Assembly: GCA_016841725.1 (NCBI GenBank)
Contig: JAENYP010000008.1
Coordinates: forward strand, 1 to 64,000
Reading direction: 5' to 3'
From: Thermincola carboxydiphila
GTDB taxonomy: Bacteria; Bacillota; Thermincolia; Thermincolales; UBA2595
Length of the DNA: 64,000 bases
In this document: positions 50,370 to 51,970 of the stretch, piece by piece
Numbering within the stretch: position 1 is the first letter of the stretch
Layout: each line of letters opens with the position of its first letter
Translations under genes and position numbers: made by a program
The notes under the pieces: model-generated
What the model saw: only the letters and a program-made list of their open reading frames with translations
What the model was told of the DNA's origin: nothing
Database searches by the model: none

Positions 50370-50642
50370 GCACCCCACCACAACTTTTCTGTCACTTTTT
50401 TACTGTTTTTATTATATATTACATCATTTGTTTTTTTTGTCATTTACTGTCGTCAAAAAAAATTTTTTTAGGGGTTTTTTGGAAGGAATATTCAGGAGCA
50501 ATATCCTGTCGCTTAACATAATATAAAGCAGAAACTTATTATGTCATAAAATGCTGATTGCTCTGGACTGCAGCAGCAACTTTGGTGGGTGACGAAATAT
50601 TTGGTTGAAAGTGATAAATTAAAAAAGGAGGTATAAATAATT

Positions 50643-50840
50643 ATGTATTACCATAATAATTATAATTATTATTACCCTTATAACATCCCCGCAAGAATTG
50701 ACGGCGGGTTTGGCGGGTTTGGCGGGTTTAAAAAATTCCCCTTTTTCCCGTTCTTCCCCTTCTTCCCGTTTTTCCCGTTCTTTCCGTTCTTCCCCGGGGG
50801 AGGGTTTGGCGGAGGATTTGGCGGAGGCTGGGGCTGGTAA
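50643..50840 (+). CDS. Phe/Pro/Gly low-complexity small protein
   Basis: 65 residues. AAAAGGAGG lies 11 bases before ATG 50643. It has three blocks: a Tyr/Asn/His-rich head (YYHNNYNYYYPYN), a Gly-Phe block (GGFGGFGGF), then seven Pro residues spaced three apart in an FPF repeat (about 32-51), and a Gly/Phe/Trp tail (GGGFGGGFGGGWGW). No membrane or signal segment is clear. Codon use in the repeat varies (ttc/ttt, ccc/ccg), which argues for selection on the protein. Role is unknown; aromatic-Gly repeats recall coat or adhesive proteins, and the organism sporulates. Confidence 0.6.
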   Translation: MYYHNNYNYYYPYNIPARIDGGFGGFGGFKKFPFFPFFPFFPFFPFFPFFPGGGFGGGFGGGWGW

Positions 50841-50919: not shown

Positions 50920-51033
50920 ATGAATAAAGAAGTTCTACTTAAACAAATAGGTTCAGACCTGAAAATGTTTGAGGATTATCTTAAGTCAGTTAAACAGAAA
51001 AAATCCCCCACTAATAAGAAACAGGCAAAATAG
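50920..51033 (+). CDS. 37-residue hypothetical peptide
   Basis: ATG 50920 follows GGAGG by 5 bases, and the ORF ends at TAG 51031-51033, directly inside a terminator hairpin. The peptide (MNKEVLLKQIGSDLKMFEDY then LKSVKQKKSPTNKKQAK) is an amphipathic helix with a basic tail. It lies 79 bases after the FPF gene, in the same direction, and may share its transcript. No known family. Confidence 0.55.
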   Translation: MNKEVLLKQIGSDLKMFEDYLKSVKQKKSPTNKKQAK

Positions 51034-51079: not shown

Positions 51080-51970
51080 TTAGCGCCCTGCTGCAACCTG
51101 TCCCAAGACTTCCTGCTTAAGCCTGTCCAGCCCAACACGGTCAATCAGTTCACCTATGCGTTCATTGCGTTTCCCATTTTTCTTATACCATTTAACAATC
51201 TTATCAACCAACTCTATCACCTGATCCGGTTCAAGCTCTGCAGCGACTTTATCACCAAGTCTGGGGTTTAACCCTGCATTTCCCCCAGCCATTAAAACAT
51301 AGCCCTTGGGTGTACCCATAATTCCAATGTCCCTGACAGCAGGCTCTGAACACGAGTTCTGACAGCCGCTGACAGCAATCTTAAATTTGCTGGGCAGCTC
51401 CATGCCGTGGTATTTTTTATCCAGTTCCAGTCCCAAACCAACCGCATCCTGCTGGCCGCGTTTACAGAACGTAGTTGCGGGACAAATTTTTATGCTCCTG
51501 ACACAGAGCCCCACCGCATGACCGGGGTCCATCTGCAAGTCATCCCATGCTTTTTCCACATCACCGTGTTTTAATCCCACAATTGCTATTCTCTGAGCCG
51601 AGGTACATTTCAGCGCCGCCGCGTTGTACCTTTCAGCAACATCAGCTATTTTACGCAGGGTCTCTACATTAGTTATTCCTCCCGGCATATGAGGCACAAT
51701 AGCATATGTCTCTTTGTCCCTCTGCAAAACGGCGCCTTTAGGCTGCGCCAGAGCTTTGGCAGCAGTCGACATTTCTCCCTGTTCAACGGCATTAAGTTTC
51801 TGCAGGAGATCTGCTTCGGAAACCCCATGGGTCATGGCAGCTCCGGCAATTGTCTCCCCGGTGGCCGAAGGGCAGCCCAGGCACTGCATGCCCAAAGACC
51901 TGAAAACATCGGCCGTTTTCGGGTTTGCCTTTAGGACATCCCCCACAGTCATATCTCTGGTGATATTCAT
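51080..51970 (-). CDS. DUF1858 fused to a siroheme/4Fe-4S nitrite-sulfite reductase-like domain
   Basis: 296 residues, ATG 51970 with AAAGGAGG upstream. Residues 1-65 are a DUF1858 domain with CLGC (Cys30, Cys33). Then comes a half-size reductase domain with VGLCVRSIKICPATTFCKRG (Cys163, Cys169) and SGCQNSCSEPAVRDIGIMG (Cys203, Cys207). Those four Cys are placed to bind a 4Fe-4S cluster coupled to siroheme. A full assimilatory enzyme has two reductase halves; this has one, like small low-molecular-weight sulfite reductases. It lies beside a Cys-rich CGGC protein. Substrate is not readable. Confidence 0.82.
   Translation of the reverse strand: MNITRDMTVGDVLKANPKTADVFRSLGMQCLGCPSATGETIAGAAMTHGVSEADLLQKLNAVEQGEMSTAAKALAQPKGAVLQRDKETYAIVPHMPGGITNVETLRKIADVAERYNAAALKCTSAQRIAIVGLKHGDVEKAWDDLQMDPGHAVGLCVRSIKICPATTFCKRGQQDAVGLGLELDKKYHGMELPSKFKIAVSGCQNSCSEPAVRDIGIMGTPKGYVLMAGGNAGLNPRLGDKVAAELEPDQVIELVDKIVKWYKKNGKRNERIGELIDRVGLDRLKQEVLGQVAAGR

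Follow-up and report, generated by a model that had tools for sequence, protein, structure and literature searches.

Does a short reading frame built of evenly spaced prolines and phenylalanine pairs in Thermincola carboxydiphila encode a protein, and if so, what might such a protein be for? The frame (Table 1) lies in the window, i.e. the whole 64,000-nucleotide stretch of DNA analysed here. It reads exactly as an earlier note on this DNA had described it, with seven prolines at every third residue (residues 33–51), six Phe-Phe pairs between them, Gly/Phe flanks and a Tyr/Asn head. Periods of three or four run through all segments, with GGF blocks giving way to the FFP ladder and then to GGGF repeats. 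Aromatic residues account for 42% of the 65 amino acids (18 Phe, 7 Tyr, 2 Trp), and 16 residues are Gly. The last 34 residues contain neither Lys nor Arg and the protein would therefore largely be missed by trypsin-based proteomics. The strong ribosome site and the varied codons claimed in the same note were likewise found: AAGGAGGT is present, and codon usage is mixed for both Phe (TTC 10, TTT 8) and Pro (CCC 4, CCG 4, CCT 1). Because of this mixture the gene is not a simple DNA microsatellite.

Table 1. Coordinates of the FPF gene, its segments and associated features. Positions refer to the window unless a locus is given.
Feature	Position	Strand	Remarks
FPF-repeat protein gene, 65-aa ORF MYYHNNYNYYYPYNIPARIDGGFGGFGGFKKFPFFPFFPFFPFFPFFPFFPGGGFGGGFGGGWGW	50643–50840	+	ATG to TAA, stop included; from sequence, with orthologues in two same-genus genomes
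Ribosome-binding site AAGGAGGT	50625–50632	+	10 nt 5' of ATG
Tyr/Asn head MYYHNNYNYYYPYN	residues 1–14
IPARID linker	after Tyr/Asn head, before Gly-Phe block
Gly-Phe block GGFGGFGGF	residues 21–29		followed by KK
FPF/FFP period-3 block FPFFPFFPFFPFFPFFPFFP	50736–50795	+	codons 32–51
Gly-Phe-Trp tail GGGFGGGFGGGWGW	residues 52–65
Conserved upstream block CGCTTAACATAATATAAAG...TATTATGT	50510–50545	+	probable promoter/operator region
37-aa Lys-rich ORF MNKEVLLKQIGSDLKMFEDYLKSVKQKKSPTNKKQAK	50920–51033	+	genus-conserved neighbour
Sulfite/nitrite-reductase-like protein	51080–51970	-	N-terminal hybrid-cluster-associated redox disulfide domain (TIGR03980)
GYPGYGG-repeat gene	L016:8154–8529 (G001:C43)		between upstream block and FPF gene; assembly gap of N inside
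Desulfosporosinus-type operons	L042:1925–2399; L093:3994–4405; L142:1492–1886		tiny genes, then FPF gene

Orthologues were found at the same locus in all three Thermincola genomes examined. Those in G002 and G001 are syntenic and share 87% and 90% identity, respectively, with the window protein, which places both in a genus orthologue group defined by the same locus and at least 85% protein identity. At this locus, comEA lies divergently upstream, and a 36/37-aa ORF and the sulfite/nitrite-reductase-like gene lie downstream. Of the 20 codons in the FPF block, 11 differ between the three species through at least 12 base changes, none of which alters an amino acid. With some 20–26% of random changes in this block being synonymous, the probability of such a pattern under neutrality is about 1e-7 or less. 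For the whole gene, dN/dS is about 0.05–0.1, in line with purifying selection. The number of repeat units is constant across the three species, which argues against upkeep of the repeat by slippage. The PARIDGG linker and the lysine preceding the ladder, which are not low-complexity, are also conserved, and GGAGGTATAAATA at the ribosome site is identical in all three.

A non-protein origin of this stretch, as an expandable repeat, an antisense artefact of another ORF or an RNA element, has to be weighed here. A 99-aa antisense ORF does overlap the FPF gene, and FPF-like strings outside Bacillota are mostly non-coding. However, the antisense ORF showed no comparable conservation among the three species; the plus frame, in which changes are exclusively synonymous and ribosome site and start are conserved, is the only one with the same start/stop layout in all three. 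An RNA element was rejected, as Rfam gave no match at a meaningful score. A non-protein origin is thus very improbable, and the comparative evidence indicates that 50643–50840 (+) is a real protein-coding gene. The earlier proposal of a real protein is borne out in this way by synteny within the genus and by synonymous-only change; a disrupted frame in close relatives, which had been named as an argument against it, was not encountered, the frame being intact in both other Thermincola genomes.

The protein matched nothing in Pfam, NCBIfam, PHROGs or the PDB sequences, in agreement with the earlier statement that no described family was known. Members of the same family and order were searched with profiles and with the protein, and no homologue outside the genus came up. 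Matches with E values of 0.01–1 elsewhere in the phylum were rejected as chance hits inside larger or non-coding frames. A phage origin was likewise discarded, since neither PHROGs nor 50,697 phage records contained a match. A back-translated peptide search of 84,980 genomes gave no confirmed relative, probably because the low-complexity query defeats the confirmation step; the orthologue L027, contained in the same collection, was missed by this search and found by pattern. This is an undescribed tiny protein kept in three Thermincola species.

Scanning the 84,980 genomes with the pattern FPFFPFFPF gave at least 80 readable loci. We counted an ORF as an FPF mini-gene if it had a ribosome site, no more than 150 aa and at least three FPF units. 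Among the matches listed, 9 of 13 Bacillota loci but 0 of 67 other loci carried the pattern in such an ORF (Fisher P 3e-9), a contrast to be read with the knowledge that two genera supply two loci each and that strong ribosome sites are commoner in Bacillota than in many other phyla. The nine, among the matches listed, belong to Thermincola, Bacillus sp. OV166 (two), Desulfosporosinus (two), Gottfriedia, Melghirimyces, Shimazuella and a Haloplasmataceae MAG. The proposed search for FPF-repeat small ORFs in related spore formers was thus positive in several Bacillota. Within the phylum of Thermincola itself, 6 of 398 genomes contain the motif, in all six cases in the sense frame of a small gene with a ribosome site. 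These are the three Thermincola and the genomes G007 (same family as Thermincola; 116 aa, head NCNYNYHY), G011 (75 aa, head HYHYYYNRPPYGY) and G385 (31 aa). A shorter pattern of two FPF units added only non-coding or antisense frames.

The window protein falls within the class of Bacillota FPF-tail small proteins proposed on this basis. Its members are each encoded by a small gene with a ribosome site and combine three or more FPF units with a head rich in Tyr/Asn/His, Gly or Arg; they differ in heads, tails, repeat number and gene neighbourhood, and show no significant alignment beyond the repeat. Profile and protein searches of relatives detected no common ancestry outside it. Because the proteins do not align there, convergence is likelier than common descent, and most FPF-tail proteins in other genera are probably convergent, not orthologous, to judge by their sequences. 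Since they share only the repeat, function may not carry over between genera. Among the matches listed, a 94-aa protein of the Haloplasmataceae MAG (L024:7094–7378) comes closest to the window protein in architecture: GFGGFGFGRPG repeats precede eight evenly spaced prolines of the FPF form.

The neighbourhoods of some of these genes point to sporulation. In Bacillus sp. OV166, each of the two FPF genes lies directly 3' of two YjcZ-family genes (TIGR01732; the model matched for one copy, and the other reads almost identically), and a divergent gerPA/gerPF-family gene (PF10676) is near the FPF gene. The B. subtilis sigma-K regulon, as listed in PMC517825, includes both yjcZ and gerPA. One or two tiny genes for Gly-rich membrane proteins also precede the FPF gene in Desulfosporosinus metallidurans (L042), Desulfosporosinus sp. 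FKB (L093) and G385 (L142); their products (GIIAIAILILIALGVIF / GIAIVVVIILLLIAMGIVF) have a Gly start, a hydrophobic tail and a YjcZ-like look. In L093, the first operon gene appears frameshifted. Thermincola offers what a spore-coat protein calls for, a spore-forming host with SpoIVA and sigma-K: T. ferriacetica has been described as spore-forming (PMC4582578), SpoIVA is encoded in all three genomes, and sigma-K scores above the family cut-off in all three. We consider it rather probable that the FPF protein is a late mother-cell structural protein of the spore-coat type which self-assembles via aromatic/Pro/Gly stacking. Against this, the tiny genes of L042 and L093 score below the YjcZ models, no YjcZ protein above the TIGR01732 cut-off was found in Thermincola, and the Thermincola gene is situated between comEA and the sulfite/nitrite-reductase-like gene, not among sporulation genes.

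The upstream regions give a mixed picture. A sigma-K-type -10 element, CATANNNTA, occurs within 150 nt upstream of 5 of 11 FPF operons and of 3 of 49 control genes from the same loci (P 0.004; P 0.012 when the window gene, where the motif was first noticed, is left out). The only conserved upstream block of the Thermincola gene contains a conserved sigma-K -10-like CATAATATA (50517–50525). This lies 126 nt from the ATG and lacks a good -35, whereas the distance in three other FPF operons is 36–48 nt, which again speaks against a coat protein. The block also holds a sigma-A-like pair, TTAACA-18-TATTAT, and an 8-bp perfect inverted repeat, ACATAATA/TATTATGT (50516–50523 / 50537–50544), between the divergent comEA and the FPF gene; this repeat is kept in G002 and partly lost in G001. 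The block can accordingly be read as a sigma-A-like promoter, as the divergent comEA promoter or as an inverted-repeat operator. No other copy with fewer than two mismatches was found in its own genome. G001 has an added GYPGYGG-repeat gene directly before the FPF gene, with the same block in front of it; the block therefore probably drives the FPF gene group. The GYPGYGG repeat pattern is absent from the window genome.

The sigma-A-type pair, together with Thermincola neighbours that are housekeeping or competence genes, would suit a vegetative cell-surface, biofilm or matrix peptide, or some other self-assembling cytoplasmic or envelope material unrelated to spores. As the genus is electroactive (PMC4582578), an aromatic-rich material touching extracellular electron transfer in these metal reducers is conceivable. 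We regard such functions as unlikely: no signal peptide was seen in the sequence, no tie to cytochromes was found, the architecture recurs in spore formers not known as metal reducers, and FPF genes elsewhere adjoin YjcZ/gerP genes.

If the protein does belong to the spore coat, we infer for timing and location that a small, unfolded and extremely aromatic product would be laid down in the coat or outer spore layer late in sporulation; without a signal peptide, it would be synthesised by the mother cell and reach the spore surface from the cytoplasm, as other small coat proteins do. A polyproline-II chain completes a turn every three residues, and the ladder, with its period of three, fits such a chain with aromatic faces; the Gly-Phe flanks and the Tyr head fit sticker regions. 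An extended, polyproline-II-like conformation would place the prolines on one edge and the phenylalanines on the other two. For assembly, these latter edges would act as sticky aromatic rails, packing side by side or condensing, and the Gly-Phe ends and the Tyr-rich head would serve as flexible stickers, the head tyrosines possibly being available for oxidative cross-linking.

AlphaFold2, run with the three-sequence alignment, predicted no confident fold (pLDDT 51), which is compatible either with a disordered polymer or with an uninformative alignment. The missing fold, like the conserved linker and pre-ladder lysine described above, would also agree with a real protein in a regulatory or stress role, i.e. 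a partner-binding proline/aromatic-rich peptide or a condensate scaffold that is no structural spore component. This seems quite improbable to us, since the repeat dominates the conserved part at constant unit number and, beyond Thermincola, no consistently linked partner gene is seen.

CotT of Bacillus subtilis is a small Pro/Tyr/Gly-rich spore coat protein, rich in Tyr, Arg and Pro. By analogy, proteins of this type resemble the FPF protein in being small, of low complexity and proline/aromatic-rich with a glycine-aromatic tail; CotT is not known to have a strict FFP ladder. In polyglycine-II and polyproline-II repeat proteins, Gly or Pro recurs at set positions with a period of three residues. 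The ladder may be likened to them in its periodicity, with the bulky Phe-Phe replacing small residues. YjcZ-family proteins (TIGR01732 / PF09680) are a further likeness as tiny spore-former proteins with a Gly/aromatic start, two of which directly precede FPF genes in OV166. However, they end in a transmembrane helix, whereas the FPF protein has none and the window protein matched neither family model. The FPF protein and CotT-type proteins are both lineage-restricted, as is usual for coat proteins, of which further ones still to be identified are expected in other Firmicutes (PMC3533761). Our search of the open-access literature on CotT or FPF-like coat proteins yielded nothing useful.

A broader reading of the recurrence, which we put forward tentatively and with some doubt, is that several spore-former lineages may each have invented the FPF ladder independently as a self-assembly module for the endospore surface: a minimal aromatic rod of the polyproline type, (FFP)n, mounted on unrelated Gly/Tyr/Arg-rich heads and expressed with YjcZ/GerP-type sporulation genes. 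If so, it would add a new class to the genetically encoded aromatic biopolymers. Outside Bacillus, the catalogue of spore coats is poor, and homology searches miss the small low-complexity proteins in them; a strictly periodic, selected FFP ladder recurring in spore formers would provide a simple searchable signature for coat candidates. As a very short sequence of natural origin, the ladder would also lend itself to tests of aromatic/proline self-assembly.

Downstream of the FPF gene, the 37-aa Lys-rich ORF had no match in Pfam, NCBIfam or PHROGs and is preceded by a strongly conserved stretch of its own, AGGTATAATTAAAGTGTTTCCTGGCTATACTGGTAATGTAAACC...GGAGG. All three species share the exact DNA sequence of its last 11 codons, and at its end the ORF reaches into a 17-bp terminator stem common to the convergent reductase gene.
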